Translations under genes and position numbers: made by a program
Notes under the pieces: model-generated
Told to the model about the DNA's origin: nothing
What the model saw: only the letters and a program-made list of their open reading frames with translations
Database searches by the model: none
Shown: piece by piece, positions 335 through 9,227 of the stretch
Layout of the letters: each line of letters opens with the position of its first letter
Position numbering within the stretch: position 1 is the stretch's first letter
From: an uncultured Pleomorphomonas sp.
GTDB taxonomy: Bacteria > Pseudomonadota > Alphaproteobacteria > Rhizobiales > Pleomorphomonadaceae
Reading direction: 5' to 3'
Assembly (NCBI GenBank): GCA_937868725.1
Contig: CALMMQ010000075.1
Coordinates: 1 to 40,118, forward strand
DNA length: 40,118 bases

Positions 335-925
335 CTAGCGGTAGATCTTGCAGATGGCTTCCGCTGCCGTCCGGGCGGCTTCCTTCACGTCGCGTACCTG
401 GTCGCTACCATAGAGCAGCGGCTCGGCGACGCCCGATTCCAGCAGCCCCTTGAACAAGATGGCCGCCAGTTCGGGCGAATCGACGAGGATATCGCCGGCG
501 TCGCGCCGCTTGGCAAAGAATGCCGTCAGCGCGTCCAGCACCTGCCGCGGGCCGAGCTTGTAGACCTCCGATCCAAGCCCGCTGGCGAAGCCATCGTTCA
601 TCACGGTGCGCTGGAGGGCCAGGATTTCCGGCTGGGTCAGGAACTTGAGATGCCAGACGCCAAAGTCGGACAGCGTCTCGACGACGCTTTTCGACGATGA
701 CAGCAGATCAAGAACCAGACGCCCGCGCTCGGCCAGTGCGTGGGTCACGGCAGCGGCAAACAGCGCTTCCTTGGATTGGAAGTAGTTGTAGAGCGTCGCT
801 TTCGAACCGCCCACCTTGGCGGCGATCGCCGACATGCTGGCGCGCTCAAAGCCGACCTGTTCGAACACCGCCACCGCAGCCTCGATGATCGCACATCGTT
901 TCTCGTCAGTCTTGGTGCGCACCAC
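335..925 (-). CDS. TetR/AcrR-family transcriptional repressor, AefR-like C-terminus
   Basis: A 196-residue DNA-binding regulator of normal TetR length. The N-terminal helix-turn-helix is clear around residues 28-55 (MSAIAAKVGGSKATLYNYF), and the C-terminal half resembles the AefR-like ligand domain found in regulators of efflux pumps and stress genes. The start is a GTG preceded by GGGAG about 5 bases upstream; an in-frame TAA lies 10 codons further up, so the N-terminus cannot extend far. The divergent neighbour is a small unknown gene, and an AACTG-N7-CAGTT inverted repeat sits in the shared intergenic region as a plausible operator. Its target is not shown by the sequence; the RND pump in this window lies 23 kb away. 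The family is certain, the ligand unknown. Confidence 0.93.
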   Translation of the reverse strand: MVRTKTDEKRCAIIEAAVAVFEQVGFERASMSAIAAKVGGSKATLYNYFQSKEALFAAAVTHALAERGRLVLDLLSSSKSVVETLSDFGVWHLKFLTQPEILALQRTVMNDGFASGLGSEVYKLGPRQVLDALTAFFAKRRDAGDILVDSPELAAILFKGLLESGVAEPLLYGSDQVRDVKEAARTAAEAICKIYR

Positions 926-1178: not shown

Positions 1179-1427
1179 ATGCCTGACGACGCAACGCAGC
1201 TACACGGCAAGAGCCACTGCCGCCTCCGCCTGATCATTGAGCGCAGCGACGACGCCCATCCCTGGCGGCTTGTCGAGCGCACCGTGGTGCTCGAGCTCAA
1301 CGAGCCACAGGATATCGACGGCGATCGCAGCATCGGACGCCAACTCGGCGCCAAGAAGTGGGCGGAGATCAACCGCGACATCGCTGACGAAATCCTGCGA
1401 ATCATCAGAAGCCACACTGCCGGCTGA
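1179..1427 (+). CDS. Small conserved-looking hypothetical protein (82 aa)
   Basis: An 82-residue soluble, charged protein with no signal peptide or membrane segment; I do not recognise the family. Codon use is strongly biased to G/C in the third position, as in the neighbouring genes, which supports real coding. ATG at 1179 is chosen because GGAG lies 7 bases upstream (1168-1171); the open frame extends further upstream, to 1020, but with no ribosome site. The C-terminal half (around LGAKKWAEINRDIADEILRI) looks like an amphipathic helix pair. It lies between the TetR gene (divergent) and the bcs operon, separated from bcsN by a 192-bp intergenic region with its own regulatory boxes, so it is probably a separate unit, possibly controlled by the TetR protein. 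Confidence 0.65.
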   Translation: MPDDATQLHGKSHCRLRLIIERSDDAHPWRLVERTVVLELNEPQDIDGDRSIGRQLGAKKWAEINRDIADEILRIIRSHTAG

Positions 1428-1461: not shown

Positions 1462-1475
1462 TTGACGCCAGTCAA
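1462..1475. promoter_or_regulatory. FNR/FixK-type box upstream of bcsN
   Basis: TTGAC (1462-1466), GCCA, GTCAA (1471-1475) is a perfect palindrome and matches the TTGA-N6-TCAA pattern known for FNR/FixK regulators of alphaproteobacteria. A TATAGC hexamer at 1494-1499 would put the box centre near -38, close to the class II activator position. Binding is not proven; the spacing is a few bases short of ideal. Confidence 0.5.
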
Positions 1476-1516
1476 GGCCGTTACCACGACGATTATAGCG
1501 GCCTCGCCAGTCTTGG

Positions 1517-1532
1517 TTAATTCGGAGTTAAC
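1517..1532. promoter_or_regulatory. CtrA-type box upstream of bcsN
   Basis: TTAA (1517-1520), 7 bases, TTAAC (1528-1532) is an exact match to the CtrA consensus TTAA-N7-TTAAC. It is also a GTTAA-N7-TTAAC palindrome. It lies 88 bp before the bcsN start. If transcription starts near 1506 from the TATAGC hexamer, CtrA would bind just downstream of the start site, which is a repressing position. That direction of effect is inference. Confidence 0.55.
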
Positions 1533-1619
1533 ACATTGCAGCACTAAATGACGCGGCGGGGCAAGGGCTCCAACGGCGCACGGCGGCACCTGCCCCGGCC
1601 CGGCAACGCGGGAAGTCAG

Positions 1620-2705
1620 ATGCGGGTCCTGTCCACAATCTCGGCGGCAATCCTGATCACGCTGGTGGCCGGTTGTGCCAACCGGCCCGGTCTCGACCGA
1701 TTGGGAACGGCCGAGGCGGTGCCGGCGACCCAAGCCATGGTCTTTCCTGCGCCCGGCGGTCCGGCGATCACCGCGGTCGTCGGTCAGCACAACATCGACG
1801 GGGCCCAGCAGACCATTGCGCTCGCCACTCACGCAGCGACGGTCGGCGAGAACTACATCAAGGTTCGCCTCATCACCCGCGCCGGCGGCGCCATTGACAA
1901 CTCTCCCGGCGATCCGCCTGCCGATCTCCGGCTTGAAGACGTACGCCGCGCCCTCGTCAGCGAGTTTCCCGGCGTTGCCATGACCATGTCCGACGCCTTC
2001 GTGCAGAACAGCTTCGGCCCCTTCGGCTATGCCACCGGCACCAGCCCGCACGGTGATGGCTGCGTCTACGCCTGGCAGCAGATCCGGGCCGCTTCCAGCG
2101 ATCAGTCCATTCTCAGCAACACCGGCCGCATCGCCCTGCGTCTTCGCCTCTGCGCCGCCGGACAAACACCGCATCAGCTGATCATGACCATGTATGGTCT
2201 CACCATCGTCGCCGCCCTCGACGGCCACGACTGGAACCCCTACGGCACGCCGGCACCGGCCGATCCGCGCCTCGCTGCCGGCAGCGGCCCCATCCTGCCG
2301 CCGCACGACCGGCTGGTCTGCGCGACCACCGGCGTCTGCGTCGACGCCAGCCCGGCCGATCAGGGCCTCGCCGCCCTCGGCACCAGCCCATCCCCGGCGC
2401 CGGTTGCCCGTTTCGCCGCCGCCCCCCAGCCGATCGCCCCCCAGCCCACCGCCTTGCCGGCGAACCCGCTGCCGCCGCCCCCAGCGGCCACCTCGACCAT
2501 GCCCGCCATTCCGGCACCGACGACGGCGGCCGCCAACGCGGCGCCGATCGCCATCCCCGCCCCCACCGCTGTTGCGGCCGACCACCCTGCCCCGGCGGCC
2601 GCCCTGACGGCCATCGCCCCAATATTGCCGTTAACAAGTTCTTGCACTGACACCGCAGTTTTTAGCTGTGCCCGTAATGACGATCATAACTCGCCGGTGC
2701 CATGA
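1620..2705 (+). CDS. bcsN: Cellulose biosynthesis lipoprotein BcsN
   Basis: A 361-residue BcsN-family protein, found in rhizobial-type cellulose operons directly before bcsA; its exact role is unknown. ATG at 1620 has GGGAAG (1610-1615) just upstream. Residues 1-18 form a lipoprotein signal with a lipobox ending at Cys19 (LVAGC), so it should be a lipid-anchored envelope protein. The folded part covers about residues 30-245 and has several cysteines; residues about 250-335 are a Pro/Ala-rich linker. The last 25 residues are encoded by an AT-richer patch and look unlike the rest, so the true conserved end may lie earlier. bcsA follows after 29 bases. Recognised from operon position and the lipoprotein plus BcsN-like core; the family call is fairly sure. 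Confidence 0.8.
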   Translation: MRVLSTISAAILITLVAGCANRPGLDRLGTAEAVPATQAMVFPAPGGPAITAVVGQHNIDGAQQTIALATHAATVGENYIKVRLITRAGGAIDNSPGDPPADLRLEDVRRALVSEFPGVAMTMSDAFVQNSFGPFGYATGTSPHGDGCVYAWQQIRAASSDQSILSNTGRIALRLRLCAAGQTPHQLIMTMYGLTIVAALDGHDWNPYGTPAPADPRLAAGSGPILPPHDRLVCATTGVCVDASPADQGLAALGTSPSPAPVARFAAAPQPIAPQPTALPANPLPPPPAATSTMPAIPAPTTAAANAAPIAIPAPTAVAADHPAPAAALTAIAPILPLTSSCTDTAVFSCARNDDHNSPVP

Positions 2706-2734: not shown

Positions 2735-4927
2735 ATGAGTTCTGGCAAGTTCGCGACCGTGATGTTCTGGCTGGTGGTGATGGCGGGCTTCCTGGTGCTG
2801 GCGACGCTGCCCGTTTCCATGCAGGCCCAGCTCGTCACCGGCGTCTTCGTCGTCGTCATCATGATCGTCATCAAGGAACTCAAGGCCGAGGGACCCTGGC
2901 GGCAGCTGGCGCTGGCGCTTGGCTTGACCGTCGTCGGCCGCTACGTCTACTGGCGCACCACCCAGACCCTGCCGCCGACCAACCAGTTGCAGAACTTCAT
3001 CCCCGGCGTGCTGCTCTACGGCGCCGAAATGTACAACGTGCTGATGCTGCTGCTCAGCCTGTTCGTCGTGGCAAGCCCGCTCAAGCCGCGCGAGGCGCCA
3101 AAGCCGACGCGCTGGCCGAGCGTCGACATCTTCGTGCCGACCTACAACGAAGACGCTGGCCTGCTTGCCAACACGCTCGCCGCCGCCAAGGCGCTCGACT
3201 ACCCCGGCGACAGGCTGAACGTCTGGCTGCTCGACGACGGCGGCACCGACCAGAAATGCCAGTCCGCCGACCTGCTGGTCTCGCGCACCGCCATCGCCCG
3301 GCGCGCCGAACTATCCGCGCTCTGCCAGGAGCTCGGCGTCCATTATCTTGCCCGGCCGCGCAACGAGCACGCCAAGGCTGGCAACCTCAACTACGGCCTT
3401 GAGCACTCGTCCGGCGAACTGATCGCCGTCTTCGATGCCGACCATGCCCCAGCCCGCGAGTTCCTGCGCGAGACCACCGGCTATTTCGAACAGGACGACA
3501 AGCTGTTCCTGGTCCAGACGCCACACTTCTTCATCAATCCCGACCCGCTCGAACGCAACCTCAGAACCTTCGACTTCATGCCGAGCGAGAACGAGATGTT
3601 CTACGGCATCATCCAGCGCGGCCTCGACAAATGGAACGCCGCCTTCTTCTGCGGTTCGGCCGCCGTGCTGCGCCGGGCGGCGTTGGCCACCACCCATGGC
3701 TTCAAGGGCTCGTCGATCACCGAGGACTGCGAGACGGCGCTGGCGCTGCACGCCGCCGGCGGCACCTCCGTCTACGTCGACAAGCCGCTGATCGCCGGCC
3801 TGCAGCCAGCCACCTTCGCCAGCTTCATCGGCCAGCGCAGCCGTTGGGCGCAGGGCATGATGCAGATCCTGATGTTCCACTTCCCGCCACTGAAGCGCGG
3901 CCTGACGCTGGCCCAGCGTCTCTGCTACATGTCGTCGACGCTGTTCTGGCTGTTCCCGCTGTCGCGGATGATCTTCCTGCTGGCGCCGCTCTGCTATCTG
4001 TTCCTCGGTCTCGAGATCTTCTCGGCCTCCGGCACCGAGTTCTTGGCCTACATCATGACCTACATGATGGCCAACCTGATGCTGCAGAACTACCTCTATG
4101 GTTCGTTCCGCTGGCCGTGGATCTCCGAGCTCTACGAATATGCCCAGTCGCCGCACCTGTTGCCGGCCATCGTCTCGGTGTGGTTCAACCCGCGCAAGCC
4201 GACCTTCCGCGTCACCGCCAAGGACGAAGCCATCGATTCAAGCCGGCTGTCGGAAATCGGCACGCCGTTCTTCGTCATCTTCGCCCTGCTGGTCGGCGGT
4301 GTCATCGCCACCGTCTGGCGGCTTTACACCGAACCCTACAACGCCGACGTGGCCGTGGTGGTCGGCGGCTGGAACCTCCTCAATCTGGTGCTGGCCGGCT
4401 GCGCCCTCGGCGTCGTCTCCGAACGCGCCGACCGTCAGGCGTCGCGCCGCGTCGCCGTCAACCGCCGCTGCGAGTTCCGCCTCGGCGACATCTGGTACGA
4501 GGCCTCGCTCGCCAACGTCTCGACCATGGGCGCCGGTCTGCACGTCTTCCATCAGGGCGCCTTCGAGGCGCCGGCCGGCTCGACCGGCGAAATCCGCTTC
4601 CGCGTCCACGACGGCGCCGACGACATCAGCGTGCCGGTGGCGGTGCGCCGCTGCCACGCCCAGGGCAACAACCTGTTCATCGTCGGCTGTGAGTACAAGC
4701 CGACCGAGCCGCAGCACCGCCGCGCCATCGCCGACCTGATCTTCGCCAATTCGGAGCTGTGGACCAGCTTCCAGGCCAGCCGGCGGCACAACCCCGGCGT
4801 GGTGCGCGGTACCATCTGGTTCGTATCGCTGGCCCTCTACCAGATGCTGCGCGGCCTCGGCTACCAGATCAGCCGGCGTGGTGGCGAACCGTCCCGACCG
4901 CGGCCTTTCGGGGGGAAGTCGCCATGA
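2735..4927 (+). CDS. bcsA: Cellulose synthase catalytic subunit (UDP-forming), BcsA
   Basis: A 730-residue inner-membrane processive GT2 enzyme that polymerises UDP-glucose into beta-1,4-glucan and exports the chain. Membrane helices occupy about residues 10-110. The GT2 core shows the first Asp in DDGG (167-170), the metal-binding DAD (234-236), TED with the catalytic base (329-331) and QRSRW (367-371). More helices follow (about 395-460 and 510-560), with the FRVT gating-loop motif at 491-494. The C-terminal PilZ domain (about 565-665) has the Arg-rich c-di-GMP motif (RRVAVNRR) and NVSTMG (594-599), so activity should require c-di-GMP. GGAG lies about 10 bases before the ATG. Its stop overlaps the bcsB start as ATGA, showing translational coupling. 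Confidence 0.97.
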   Translation: MSSGKFATVMFWLVVMAGFLVLATLPVSMQAQLVTGVFVVVIMIVIKELKAEGPWRQLALALGLTVVGRYVYWRTTQTLPPTNQLQNFIPGVLLYGAEMYNVLMLLLSLFVVASPLKPREAPKPTRWPSVDIFVPTYNEDAGLLANTLAAAKALDYPGDRLNVWLLDDGGTDQKCQSADLLVSRTAIARRAELSALCQELGVHYLARPRNEHAKAGNLNYGLEHSSGELIAVFDADHAPAREFLRETTGYFEQDDKLFLVQTPHFFINPDPLERNLRTFDFMPSENEMFYGIIQRGLDKWNAAFFCGSAAVLRRAALATTHGFKGSSITEDCETALALHAAGGTSVYVDKPLIAGLQPATFASFIGQRSRWAQGMMQILMFHFPPLKRGLTLAQRLCYMSSTLFWLFPLSRMIFLLAPLCYLFLGLEIFSASGTEFLAYIMTYMMANLMLQNYLYGSFRWPWISELYEYAQSPHLLPAIVSVWFNPRKPTFRVTAKDEAIDSSRLSEIGTPFFVIFALLVGGVIATVWRLYTEPYNADVAVVVGGWNLLNLVLAGCALGVVSERADRQASRRVAVNRRCEFRLGDIWYEASLANVSTMGAGLHVFHQGAFEAPAGSTGEIRFRVHDGADDISVPVAVRRCHAQGNNLFIVGCEYKPTEPQHRRAIADLIFANSELWTSFQASRRHNPGVVRGTIWFVSLALYQMLRGLGYQISRRGGEPSRPRPFGGKSP

Positions 4928-7197
4928 AGCGCCTGGCCCTGCTGCTGCCGCTCCTCCTGGTGCCGAGCATCGCCCTCGCCGAGACCGCCCCCTTCGACAT
5001 GAGCGGCGAACGCCAGTCGGTAACGCCCGAGGCCACCGCGCCGGCAAGGCCCGTCACCATCGCCACCCCCGTCGAGACGCCACCGCCGAGCCGGCACTAC
5101 ATCCTGCCGACCGGAGAGACGACGTTGTCCGGCGAGACCGACCGGCGCGTCTGGTCGCTCAACCTCGACGCCGCCACTGCCGCCTCGGCGACGGTGCTGT
5201 CGCTCGGCTACAGCAACGCCGTCATGGTGGCACCGGAGCTGTCGACGCTCACCGTCACCGTCAACGACCAGCAACTGGCCAGCGAGGCCATCCAGGCCGT
5301 CGAAAAGCCGGCGACGCTGCGTCTCACCCTGCCGCCCGGCCTGCTCAAGTCCGGACCCAACCGCTTCGCCGTCACGGCAAAGCAGCGCCACCGCACCGAT
5401 TGCACCATCGCCTCGACGTACGAACTCTGGACCCGCCTCGACCCGGCAACGTCGTTCCTTGAGCCGGCCAACGGCGGCGCCGACAACAGCCTCGACGCCA
5501 TCAGGGCCGTCGGCGTCGACGCGAACGGTGTCAGCCGCTTCACCATCCTGGCGCCCGCCCTCGATCAGCCCGCCGCCGTCGCGCCGCTGCTGCGCCTGTC
5601 GCAGGCGCTCAGCCTTGCCGCCGCCATGCCGCGCCAGGCGGTGAGCTTCGTCAAGGACACGCTGCCGCCGGCCGCGCCGGGTCAACTGGCGCTCGTCGTT
5701 GGCACGCCGGCCGAGGTGGCCGCGCTGCTGCCGAACCTCCCGGCCTCGAGCGCCGACAAGCCGTTCATCGGCCTGGTGCCCCACGGCGGCGCCATGGTGC
5801 TGGCCATCGTCGGACCGGACTGGGGCGCCATCGCCAGCCTGGTGAGCGGTCTGTTGCCGGCGTCGGCACAGGGCGATGCCGCCTCCCTCGCAACCGCCGC
5901 CTGGCAGGCGCCCGACGCGCCGCTGGTGACCGGCGACCGCCAATTGTCGCTGGCCGAGCTCGGCTTGCGGACGGAAGAGTTCTCCGGCCGCCAGTTCCAC
6001 GCCGATGTCGCCTTCGCGCTGCCAGGCGACTTCTACGCCAACGCCTACGGCGAAATGATCGTGCGCCTCGACGCCGCCTTCTCTCCGGAGGTGCGCGCCG
6101 GCAGCCGGTTCAACATCTACGTCAACGGCCACATCGCCTCGTCGGTGCCCATCAACGCCGTCGGCGGTTCGATCCTCAAAAGCCTGCCGGTGCGCGTCAC
6201 CATGCGTCACCTGCGCCCCGGCCTCAATCGCCTGACCTTCGAGGCCGACCTCGCCACCGCCGCCGACGCCGCCTGCCTGCCCGGCGCCACCGCCACCGCC
6301 GCGCCGCGTTTCGCCCTGTTCGACACCACCAGCATCGACATTCCGCGTTTTGCCCGCGCCGGCCAACGGCCCGACCTCGCCGCGCTGACCGCCATCGGCT
6401 ATCCCCTTGCCACTGGCGATCGGCCGGTGGCGCTCTACCTCGATCACATCGGCACCGACACGCTGTCGGCGGCCGGCACGCTCCTCGGCAAACTGGCGCT
6501 CAAGGCCGGTCGTCCCATCGATGTGCAGCCGACTACGGCGCTGACTGGCATCGCCGCCGGCCCGGCCGTGCTGATCGCGGCCGCCGACCACCTGCCGCCC
6601 GACGTGCTGGTTCGGTTCAACATCGCCGCCGATGTCGCCAGCCGCTGGCCGTCCGGGGCCCCCACCGGCGCGACGACGCCAGCCGCCACCCTCAACGGCT
6701 GGCGCGACCGCCTCGCCGCCGACAACGGCAATCCGCTGATGCGGGCTGTTGCCTGGGTGCGATCGAACTTCGACCTGTCATCGACCGGCTGGCATCTGGC
6801 TGCCGGCGTGCCGCCGGCCTTCCTGCCCGATCCCTCGACCAGCGTACTGGCCGCCGCCGGCGACAACCCGGCCGGCGACGCCGACTGGCTGCTGGTCACC
6901 ACGCCCGACGGCGCCCATCTCGTCGACGGCGTCGAAACGCTGACGCGCGAGGCCAACTGGCAGCGCCTGTCCGGCTATGTCTCGGCCTACGCTCCCGCCG
7001 CCGATCGCATGGACAGCGCCAGCTTGCCGACGCGCTTTGTCGGCGTCGGCACGTCGGGGCTGGCCAATCTACGCCTCATCGCCGCCAACTGGCTGTCGTC
7101 GAACCTGCTTGCCTTCGTCGGTCTGGTGCTGGTCTTCGCCGTACTGCTGGCCGCCACCACCACCGCGATGCACAACCGCTTCGGGAGGCGCGACTGA
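4924..7197 (+). CDS. bcsB: Cellulose synthase periplasmic subunit BcsB
   Basis: A 757-residue periplasmic partner of BcsA that guides the nascent glucan across the periplasm and whose C-terminal helix is needed for catalysis. ATG at 4924 overlaps the bcsA stop (ATGA). Residues 1-20 are a cleavable signal peptide ending in ALA; the body is a large beta-rich region with the usual tandem carbohydrate-binding/flavodoxin-like layout, and a single membrane helix lies near the C-terminus (about residues 725-748, LLAFVGLVLVFAVLLA) before a short basic tail. Length fits the family. The next gene starts within its stop codon (TGATG). Confidence 0.95.
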   Translation: MKRLALLLPLLLVPSIALAETAPFDMSGERQSVTPEATAPARPVTIATPVETPPPSRHYILPTGETTLSGETDRRVWSLNLDAATAASATVLSLGYSNAVMVAPELSTLTVTVNDQQLASEAIQAVEKPATLRLTLPPGLLKSGPNRFAVTAKQRHRTDCTIASTYELWTRLDPATSFLEPANGGADNSLDAIRAVGVDANGVSRFTILAPALDQPAAVAPLLRLSQALSLAAAMPRQAVSFVKDTLPPAAPGQLALVVGTPAEVAALLPNLPASSADKPFIGLVPHGGAMVLAIVGPDWGAIASLVSGLLPASAQGDAASLATAAWQAPDAPLVTGDRQLSLAELGLRTEEFSGRQFHADVAFALPGDFYANAYGEMIVRLDAAFSPEVRAGSRFNIYVNGHIASSVPINAVGGSILKSLPVRVTMRHLRPGLNRLTFEADLATAADAACLPGATATAAPRFALFDTTSIDIPRFARAGQRPDLAALTAIGYPLATGDRPVALYLDHIGTDTLSAAGTLLGKLALKAGRPIDVQPTTALTGIAAGPAVLIAAADHLPPDVLVRFNIAADVASRWPSGAPTGATTPAATLNGWRDRLAADNGNPLMRAVAWVRSNFDLSSTGWHLAAGVPPAFLPDPSTSVLAAAGDNPAGDADWLLVTTPDGAHLVDGVETLTREANWQRLSGYVSAYAPAADRMDSASLPTRFVGVGTSGLANLRLIAANWLSSNLLAFVGLVLVFAVLLAATTTAMHNRFGRRD

Positions 7198-9227
7198 TGC
7201 CCCTGAAACTCCGGCCATTCCTGCTTGCCGCCACCGCCGCGCTGGCCCTGACGGTCGCCGCCCGCGCCGACGACAGCGCCGCCGATCTGCTACAGATCGC
7301 CGAGGCCACCACCCCGCCGCCGGCCGTCAAGGCCCCGGCGGAGGAGCCGAACGTCGACCTCAGCGCCCTGCGCTACTTCGCCCGTCAGGGCGACACCGAA
7401 CGCCTCAAGACCGAAATCGCCCGTCTCAAGGCGCTCTATCCATCGTGGGTGCCCCCCGCCGATCCGCTGACCGCCGGCACTGCCGACAAGGCGCTCGACG
7501 CCATGTGGCAGCTTTACGGCGACGGCAAGTACAGCGAACTGCGCCAGGCCATCGCCAAGCGCCAGGCCGCCGAGCCGGGCTGGCAGGTGCCGGCCAATCT
7601 CCTCGCCCAGCTCACCGACGCCGAGGCCCGCCAGCGCCTGCTCGCCGCATTCGGCGGCAAGCAATATGCCACCGTCGTCGAGATCGCCGCGACGAGCCCG
7701 GGCCTGTTGACCTGCGCCGAACCGGAAGTGCTGTGGGACGTCGCCGAATCGTTCATCCGCAGCGACCGTGGCGACCGTGGCGGTGACGTCTACGGCTACC
7801 TCCTCAAGAACTGCGATGACGCCGCCGTGCGCAAGGCAACGGTGCAGAAGGCAGCCGGCCTGCTCTCCTATGGCGCCATGCAACCCCTGCTCGCCCTCGA
7901 ACGCAACGGCGAGTTCGACAGCCTGCGCGACGATCTCGCCCGCCGCTACGTCGGCGCCGCCGATGCCGACACCTCGCTGGTGATCGATCCGGCCTACGTC
8001 GATCGGGCGCACCGGCTGGCCGACAGCTCCGGCAAGGCCGAGGACGCGCTGCTCTACGGCTGGTATCTCTGGCTGCGCGACAAGTCGCCCGACGCCGGCC
8101 GCTATTTCGCCGCCGCCCGGGCCCGCGCCGATTCGGCGTCGGCCTCGCAAGGACTGGCGCTCGTTCGCATCGCCGAGGGCAAGTTCCTCGAGGCCGAAGC
8201 CATCATGTATGGCTGGCGCGACACCTCGGCCGACGCCATGGCCACCTATCTCGCCGCCACGGCCAGCCTCATCGCCAAGACACCGGTCGAAGCCATCGAC
8301 GCCAACGTGCTGAAGCGCATCGCCGATGTCGTCCTCGCCCGTCGCGACGCCGCCACGGCCCAGCAGTTCGGCTGGTACGCCCGCGCCTTCGGCGCCATGC
8401 CGCTGGCCCGACAATGGTTTGAAACAGCGCTGACCTTCAAGCCGGACGATGAACCGTCGGCCTATGGCCTCGCCGTCACCGACCTCGATCTCAAGGACAA
8501 GGGGGGCCTTGCCAGCGTGCAGGCCGCCTGGGCCAGCCGTTCACCGCGCATCGCCGCCGTCGGCCACGCCGTCGCCGCCCAGCCGCCGCCACCACGGCCG
8601 GCCCCGCTTCCCACGGCCACGCCGCCCGTCGCCGCGCCCCTCGCCTACGGCCCGATCACCACGCCGACCGTGGCGCCGCCGCGACCGGCCACCGCGCAGA
8701 CGCCCCGCCTTGCCGCCGCGGCGCCGGGTTGCGCCCACGCCGCCGTCGGGGGCAAGGCCGCCTCGGCCCTCAGCCAGGGCTGGTGCCTCATGGAGCTCAA
8801 GCGTCCCGCTGCCGCCATCGCCAGCTTCGAGGCGGCGGCGGCAAGCCCGCACCTCGGCGATCGCCAGCAGGCGGCACGCGGCAAGGCGCTTGCCTACCTG
8901 CGGCTGGGTCTGATCAACGAAGCGGCGCTCGCCGCCACCGGCACGCCGCTGCCACCCGCCCAGGCGGCCGAGCTGCAGATTGCCATCCTCGGCGACCGCG
9001 CCGTCGCCGCCTTCAACGGCAAGCGCTTCCGCGAAACCATCCTCTACCTCGACCAGCGCGCCGCCCTCAGGGACGAACCTGTCGACCTCATGGTGTTGCG
9101 CGGCTATGCTTACTTCCGGCTCGGCCGCACGTCCGACGCCGAACGCATCTTCCGAGCGGTGGCGGCAACCGGCAACCGCGATGCCACGCGCGGCCTCAAC
9201 GAGGTGATGCAATCGGCGGCCCGCTAG
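7197..9227 (+). CDS. Periplasmic TPR protein of the cellulose operon (BcsK/BcsC-N-like)
   Basis: A 676-residue exported protein with a signal peptide (residues 1-24, ending ARA). It consists of helical TPR-like repeats over about residues 45-455, a Pro/Ala-rich linker (about 458-508), and a second TPR block (about 515-670) starting with a Cys-containing segment. It lacks the beta-barrel expected of full BcsC. TPR proteins in this position occur in rhizobial cellulose operons (named BcsK in some schemes) and are thought to scaffold export through the periplasm. Its ATG shares one base with the bcsB stop, so it is co-translated. No outer-membrane porin is in view. The operon role is well supported, the family name less so. 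Confidence 0.8.
   Translation: MPLKLRPFLLAATAALALTVAARADDSAADLLQIAEATTPPPAVKAPAEEPNVDLSALRYFARQGDTERLKTEIARLKALYPSWVPPADPLTAGTADKALDAMWQLYGDGKYSELRQAIAKRQAAEPGWQVPANLLAQLTDAEARQRLLAAFGGKQYATVVEIAATSPGLLTCAEPEVLWDVAESFIRSDRGDRGGDVYGYLLKNCDDAAVRKATVQKAAGLLSYGAMQPLLALERNGEFDSLRDDLARRYVGAADADTSLVIDPAYVDRAHRLADSSGKAEDALLYGWYLWLRDKSPDAGRYFAAARARADSASASQGLALVRIAEGKFLEAEAIMYGWRDTSADAMATYLAATASLIAKTPVEAIDANVLKRIADVVLARRDAATAQQFGWYARAFGAMPLARQWFETALTFKPDDEPSAYGLAVTDLDLKDKGGLASVQAAWASRSPRIAAVGHAVAAQPPPPRPAPLPTATPPVAAPLAYGPITTPTVAPPRPATAQTPRLAAAAPGCAHAAVGGKAASALSQGWCLMELKRPAAAIASFEAAAASPHLGDRQQAARGKALAYLRLGLINEAALAATGTPLPPAQAAELQIAILGDRAVAAFNGKRFRETILYLDQRAALRDEPVDLMVLRGYAYFRLGRTSDAERIFRAVAATGNRDATRGLNEVMQSAAR

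Follow-up and report, generated by a model that had tools for sequence, protein, structure and literature searches.

The closest described counterparts of the site analysed here are the full-site CtrA promoters of Caulobacter, in which the motif TTAA-N7-TTAA is found mostly near the -35 position and is associated with activation (PMC4287350). In Agrobacterium tumefaciens, predicted CtrA boxes precede two attachment-related genes, dgcB and Atu3318, whose products are a GGDEF protein and a LuxR-type regulator, respectively; the same report gives 39 changed genes in a pdhS2 mutant, with no cel gene among them (PMC7003649). Mutations in divK or pleD (celR) of Agrobacterium affect cellulose, which also ties the cell-cycle phosphorelay to cellulose, and c-di-GMP is named there as a primary regulator (PMC4018554). 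In the Rhodobacteraceae, the Crp/Fnr and CtrA networks are reported to overlap (PMC7232146). The word cellulose does not occur in a study on CtrA of Sinorhizobium meliloti (PMC4433202), and a limited search of the open-licence literature returned no statement that CtrA acts directly on a cellulose operon, although other publications may contain one. Within the limits of this search, a CtrA-cellulose promoter link is unreported.

We describe here a predicted CtrA site in front of a cellulose gene cluster of an uncultured Pleomorphomonas sp. (assembly GCA_937868725.1). The window, the whole stretch of DNA that was analysed, comprises 40,118 nucleotides of contig CALMMQ010000075.1. Its features relevant to this study, together with a second operon of the same genome, are as follows.

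335..925, minus strand: TetR-family regulator with an AefR-like C-terminal domain
1179..1427, plus strand: small ORF of 82 aa upstream of bcsN, with coding-like codon GC and no family match
1462..1475, no strand: TTGACGCCAGTCAA, FNR/FixK-like palindrome, not conserved, probably chance or of unknown use
1492..1520, minus strand: promoter-like TTAACC-17-TATAAT (10/12, 0.2 expected), facing away from bcsN
1516..1532, no strand: CtrA-type box GTTAATTCGGAGTTAAC, a perfect palindrome with TTAA-N7-TTAAC on both strands
1544..1549, plus strand: weak candidate -10 CTAAAT for bcsN, proposed from position only, with a start near 1556
1620..2705, plus strand: bcsN, which opens the cellulose cluster and encodes a predicted lipoprotein (PF17038, 5.4e-55)
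2735..4927, plus strand: bcsA, cellulose synthase catalytic subunit with a PilZ domain (TIGR03030, 888.8 bits, cut-off 699.1)
4759..7197, plus strand: bcsB ORF (PF03170, 7.6e-55), its likely start near 4924 overlapping the bcsA end (from the translation)
7197..9227, plus strand: TPR protein, BcsK-like by position only, with weak TPR matches below the Pfam cut-offs
Contig 44, 74991-81587 (G000:C44:74991-81587; L086, L087): second cellulose operon, bcsA2-bcsB2-GH8-bcsN2

A cellulose cluster with the order bcsN-bcsA-bcsB-bcsK has been described (PMC9012009). The ORF tool placed the start of bcsN at 1548; an ATG at 1620 is the likelier start and gives the protein a lipoprotein-type signal peptide, MRVLSTISAAILITLVAGC, as judged by a lipobox pattern and not by a trained predictor. 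With the start codon at 1620, the CtrA-type box is located 104 to 88 bases upstream of it. The sequence TTAATTCGGAGTTAAC at 1517-1532 is an exact match to the CtrA motif TTAA-N7-TTAA(C), and because the G at 1516 completes the perfect palindrome GTTAA-N7-TTAAC, TTAA-N7-TTAAC is matched on both strands. The mean number of such matches in shuffled windows was 0.00. When scored against the extended CtrA motif, the box reaches 12/13 on the minus strand versus 9/13 on the plus strand. The preliminary description of this DNA had placed the FNR/FixK-type box at 1462-1475, the CtrA-type box 41 bases further on and a TATAGC hexamer at 1494-1499 between them, and all of these positions are correct.

Compared with the Caulobacter promoters, the locus has the same palindromic motif, here at what we infer to be a -35 place, and a CtrA ortholog is encoded in the genome (424.7 bits, cut-off 350); the difference is that the target here would be a cellulose operon. 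The cellulose genes of the window are also unlike the products of dgcB and Atu3318, and a direct promoter site is proposed here in contrast to the c-di-GMP route emphasized for DivK and PleD.

Of the 20 genomes of the family, 7 carry a BcsN gene, as do 80 of 397 genomes from the order, the latter being a sample of a larger group; the total is 82 genes. The upstream regions of 81 of these were scanned, this genome's two included; the remaining gene (G015) lies at a contig end and has no upstream sequence. At least 8 of the 10 fixed bases of GTTAA-N7-TTAAC are present in 46 of the 81 regions, covering 11 of 16 families, and one of this genome's own two regions is among them. The boxes are also similarly placed, with 31 of the 46 located between -135 and -85 relative to the chosen bcsN start, a figure slightly biased in favour of clustering by the breaking of position ties towards -115. 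Elsewhere in these loci, 420-base windows reached 8/10 in 12 of 522 cases, and groES upstream regions did so in 0 of 28 (30 loci from a longer match list, two of which have short flanks). The groES set is the fairer control, since the other windows of the bcsN loci are mostly coding. When up to one mismatch is allowed, TTAA-N7-TTAAC is present in 40 of the 81 regions versus 1.7 expected from shuffled copies, and the exact form in 10 versus 0.2. The box is absent at the 8/10 level from 35 of the 81 regions, which belong to type-2 genes with bcsN not in first place and also to genes of the window type (e.g. G329, G261, G393 and G173). The predicted CtrA box before bcsN is widely conserved, though not universal; the preliminary description had looked to relatives for the box being kept before bcsN, and the 46 of 81 regions bear this out.

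The columns outside the selected bases carry additional information. C is favoured after the first half-site (0.52), and C (0.64), A (0.62) and T (0.48) are favoured at the end of the second, so the emergent consensus of the boxed loci reads GTTAAC-N6-TTAACCAT. CAT follows the box in 18 of 45 boxed loci, in five families. The CtrA motif is known in a CCAT-bearing form (TTAACCAT), and the consensus of the predicted sites fits it. The orientation of the extended motif among the 45 boxed loci is mixed (23 forward, 16 reverse and 6 ties). It is noted that in loci of family f17 (e.g. L088 and L050) additional TTAAC half-sites (TTAACGTTAAC) are found immediately upstream of the box.

A sample of 385 genomes from the wider class contained 12 with BcsN, nine of them outside the order. 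Within the genus, 2 of the 13 other members (G001-G013) have a bcsN match, of the window type in G012 and of the other type in G007, and cellulose operons therefore look patchy at this level.

Named relatives were represented by 24 bcsN loci, 6 from genome contigs and 18 from plasmid records, the latter selected for species spread from 40 of 65 bcsN-bearing plasmid records. Species may be shared between this set and the order sample, and the two counts cannot be treated as independent. The box is found at 8/10 or better in 14 of the 24, including Rhizobium tropici CIAT 899, R. grahamii, R. lusitanum, R. jaguaris, R. etli, R. leguminosarum and Neorhizobium petrolearium. It is missing at the other ten, which comprise all five Sinorhizobium loci (S. 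meliloti GR4 included), both Pararhizobium loci and one locus each of Shinella, Allorhizobium and Rhizobium. On the evidence of these sequences, the putative CtrA-cellulose link was lost or never gained in the box-less lineages. Six records (L260, L262, L264 and L266-L268) are the five Sinorhizobium and the one Shinella, all lacking the box before bcsN. Shinella zoogloeoides is reported to produce cellulose (PMC9012009).

The second cellulose operon of this genome differs in gene order, and its BcsN is of a distant type. A perfect GTTAA-N7-TTAAC is located at 81571-81587 of contig 44, about 80 bases upstream of the earliest start codon that the bcsA2 ORF allows; the likelier ATG starts of bcsA2 sit further into the ORF. 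The gene 5' of this box encodes a DEAD-box helicase and is on the same strand. The two cellulose operons carry 2 of the 10 perfect GTTAA-N7-TTAAC palindromes in the genome. Seventeen relatives in which bcsA precedes bcsN and the bcsA start falls within the stretch were compared by scanning from 500 bases before to 60 bases after the projected bcsA start. A box stands at the head of bcsA at 9/10 in four of these relatives and at 8/10 in five, while 8 of the 17 have none at 8/10. Where present, the predicted box marks the head of the operon irrespective of which gene comes first.

Across the genome, the exact CtrA motif gives 34 oriented matches versus 7 for a reversed control, at 24 distinct sites. 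Apart from the site in the window there are 23, and the surroundings of 18 of these were surveyed through 30 flanking ORFs chosen by length, 17 of which match no family. The neighbours identified include FlhA, FliX, RpoD, a GGDEF-EAL protein, an L,D-transpeptidase, a murein endopeptidase and BcsA2, as well as transporters, an outer-membrane protein, a stress protein and an Abi-like protein. In Brucella abortus the rpoD promoter is reported to be bound by CtrA (PMC2877005). The CtrA-like character of this predicted neighbourhood is a qualitative picture. The upstream region of this genome's own ctrA has no box better than 7/10. It should be mentioned that contigs C1 and C2 give the same matches at a constant shift of 21 bases (a CtrA-motif site, response regulators and groES), and one stretch seems to be present twice in the assembly.

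Across families, an AT-rich block is found 12-17 bases 3' of the box, which is reached in 11 of 1000 rotations. Its position would place a candidate -10 for bcsN at 1544-1549 with transcription starting near 1556, and the CtrA box would consequently lie over the -35 and not just past the start. The preliminary description had assumed another geometry, with the first box at an activator position and the second just past the start site. This geometry is doubtful, since TATAGC coincides in part with the rear of a minus-strand TATAAT that faces away from bcsN. TATAGC was rejected as the -10 of bcsN because this minus-strand TATAAT is all that the promoter scan yields at that place. We also rejected an RNA structure (hairpin or leader) in the region of the boxes, the fold z being -0.87 with 38 of 200 shuffles equally good.

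Taken with its sequence, its conservation, the extended-motif match, the box of the second operon and the encoded CtrA ortholog, the box at 1516-1532 is a well-supported predicted CtrA target. We consider it likely that CtrA directly controls the bcsN-bcsA-bcsB cluster through this box, whichever the sign of the control. The predicted site would place the cluster under the CtrA cell-cycle phosphorelay, with phosphorylated CtrA binding over the -35 of a promoter that has its -10 near 1544-1549 and its start near 1556. If CtrA acts as an activator, cells whose CtrA is active would build the synthase, and c-di-GMP, through the BcsA PilZ domain, would decide when it works. The TTGAC-N4-GTCAA box would have no conserved part in this scheme. 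Against the CtrA reading stands the missing box in 35 of the 81 regions, 10 of the 24 named loci and 8 of the 17 bcsA-first relatives. Also to be counted against it are the lack of cel genes among those changed in the A. tumefaciens pdhS2 mutant, the ctrA upstream region with its boxes at 7/10 or lower, the better minus-strand score of the extended motif, and a weak bcsN -10 in a region where a perfect TATAAT points in the opposite direction. As for the sign, activation is favoured, at roughly an even chance; this is a lean, not a result, and it has against it the weak -10 of bcsN, the mixed orientation of the motif and the repressing boxes of dgcB and Atu3318 in Agrobacterium.

Repression by CtrA through the same box is the best-surviving alternative. 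It is included in, and not additional to, the likelihood given to direct CtrA control, and we regard it as unlikely, though far from negligible. Here CtrA would block RNA polymerase, so that motile cells whose CtrA is active make no cellulose, and the block is released when CtrA is lost. Expression of A. tumefaciens dgcB and Atu3318 rose when TTAA was replaced by AATT in their predicted CtrA boxes, as would be expected for repression, and the Atu3318 box is located at -109 from the start codon, much like the box of the window (PMC7003649). More Congo Red is bound by a pdhS2 mutant (PMC3577659), and in an A. tumefaciens transcriptome ctrA is down on days 0 and 3 and celB is up on day 4, a weak indication given the many changes (PMC9138961). 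However, the AT-rich block is found where a -10 belongs if the box covers the -35, a place at which the full motifs of Caulobacter mostly go with activation (PMC4287350).

A role of the box in leftward transcription is improbable. In this case the box would mainly drive the TTAACC-17-TATAAT promoter, producing an antisense RNA or serving the TetR gene, and its adjacency to bcsN would be incidental in this species. This promoter is the sole promoter-like site returned by the scan of 1400-2750, with 10 of 12 positions matched where 0.2 such sites are expected; its TTAACC hexamer overlaps the CtrA box, and the extended CtrA motif is the better one on the minus strand. It would read antisense into the 82-aa ORF and towards the TetR gene. 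However, a leftward gene at 956-1453 was rejected because the codon GC of this ORF is unlike that of a coding sequence, whereas the 82-aa ORF on the plus strand is coding-like. At the corresponding place, leftward hexamers in the other 44 boxed loci all score 4/6 or less, and the constant neighbour of the box across families is bcsN, by which, it should be mentioned, the loci were chosen.

Use of the site by a TTAA-binding regulator other than CtrA is, in our view, still less probable. CtrA-type sites can be shared, as ChIP peaks of the Brucella silencer MucR overlap CtrA sites (PMC10746212), but the consensus TTAAC-N6-TTAACCAT fits the CtrA motif, and the same motif adjoins flagellar genes and rpoD in this genome.

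The preliminary description had proposed dual control, with FNR/FixK activating from 1462-1475 at low oxygen and CtrA acting as a repressor just past the start. Its CtrA half is upheld in that the box recurs (46/81, and the second operon), whereas its FNR/FixK half is not. Both motifs are present in the window, where TTGACGCCAGTCAA is the only exact TTGA-N6-TCAA. With 0.20 expected and at least one found in 17 of 100 shuffles, TTGACGCCAGTCAA taken alone is barely above chance. Among the 81 bcsN upstream regions the exact form occurs once, in this genome (0.4 expected), and the form with at most one mismatch in 11 (7.7 expected); the named loci have it in 0 of 24 and 5 of 24, respectively. The nearest relatives with a window-type bcsN, G012 of the same genus and G016 of the same family, have no TTGA-N6-TCAA within one mismatch before this gene, and the alignment columns at the place of the box carry at most 0.23 bits. 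Low-oxygen control of bcsN from TTGACGCCAGTCAA was rejected on these grounds, and conservation of the FNR/FixK box before bcsN did not hold up.

FNR-type control as such probably exists in this organism. Three Crp/Fnr proteins have FixK as their best NCBIfam match (78.6, 119.8 and 89.1 bits, below the cut-off of 300). TTGAY-N4-RTCAA occurs at 11 sites in the genome versus 2 in the control, of which 3 have the form of the window, 6 are mixed, with one of these preceding an Rrf2-family gene, and 2 are TTGAT-N4-ATCAA. The clearest FNR-type site, TTGATCTTAATCAA, is located between hemN and ccoN. It shares the TTGA-N6-TCAA form with the window box; however, it is a TTGAT-N4-ATCAA beside classic oxygen-regulated genes, while the window box is a TTGAC-N4-GTCAA that is not conserved. 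The TTGAC-N4-GTCAA form occurs at 3 sites versus 2 in the control, and the two outside the window lie within a coding-like ORF and between the converging ends of an ABC-transporter gene and repC. SinR and FnrN are reported to affect biofilm maturation in Agrobacterium (PMC4018554), and the mixed half-sites, which make C-containing half-sites possible, leave a small chance for low-oxygen control. Nothing found here ties FNR-type control to cellulose, and the dual low-oxygen design is not supported, being the least probable of the readings considered.

Cellulose synthesis in these bacteria has mostly been explained by c-di-GMP so far. We lean slightly towards a broader view, in which CtrA would directly control cellulose synthase operons in much of the order, as an old link that has tracked the operon head through changes of gene order; two keys would then operate together, CtrA setting when the synthase is built and c-di-GMP when it is run. 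Rhizobium tropici and R. etli are among the well-studied rhizobia in which the predicted box offers a simple site for testing. If direct CtrA control is true, then with a conserved site at the head of two different cellulose operons, cellulose would join flagella among the direct outputs of the cell cycle at the level of transcription.
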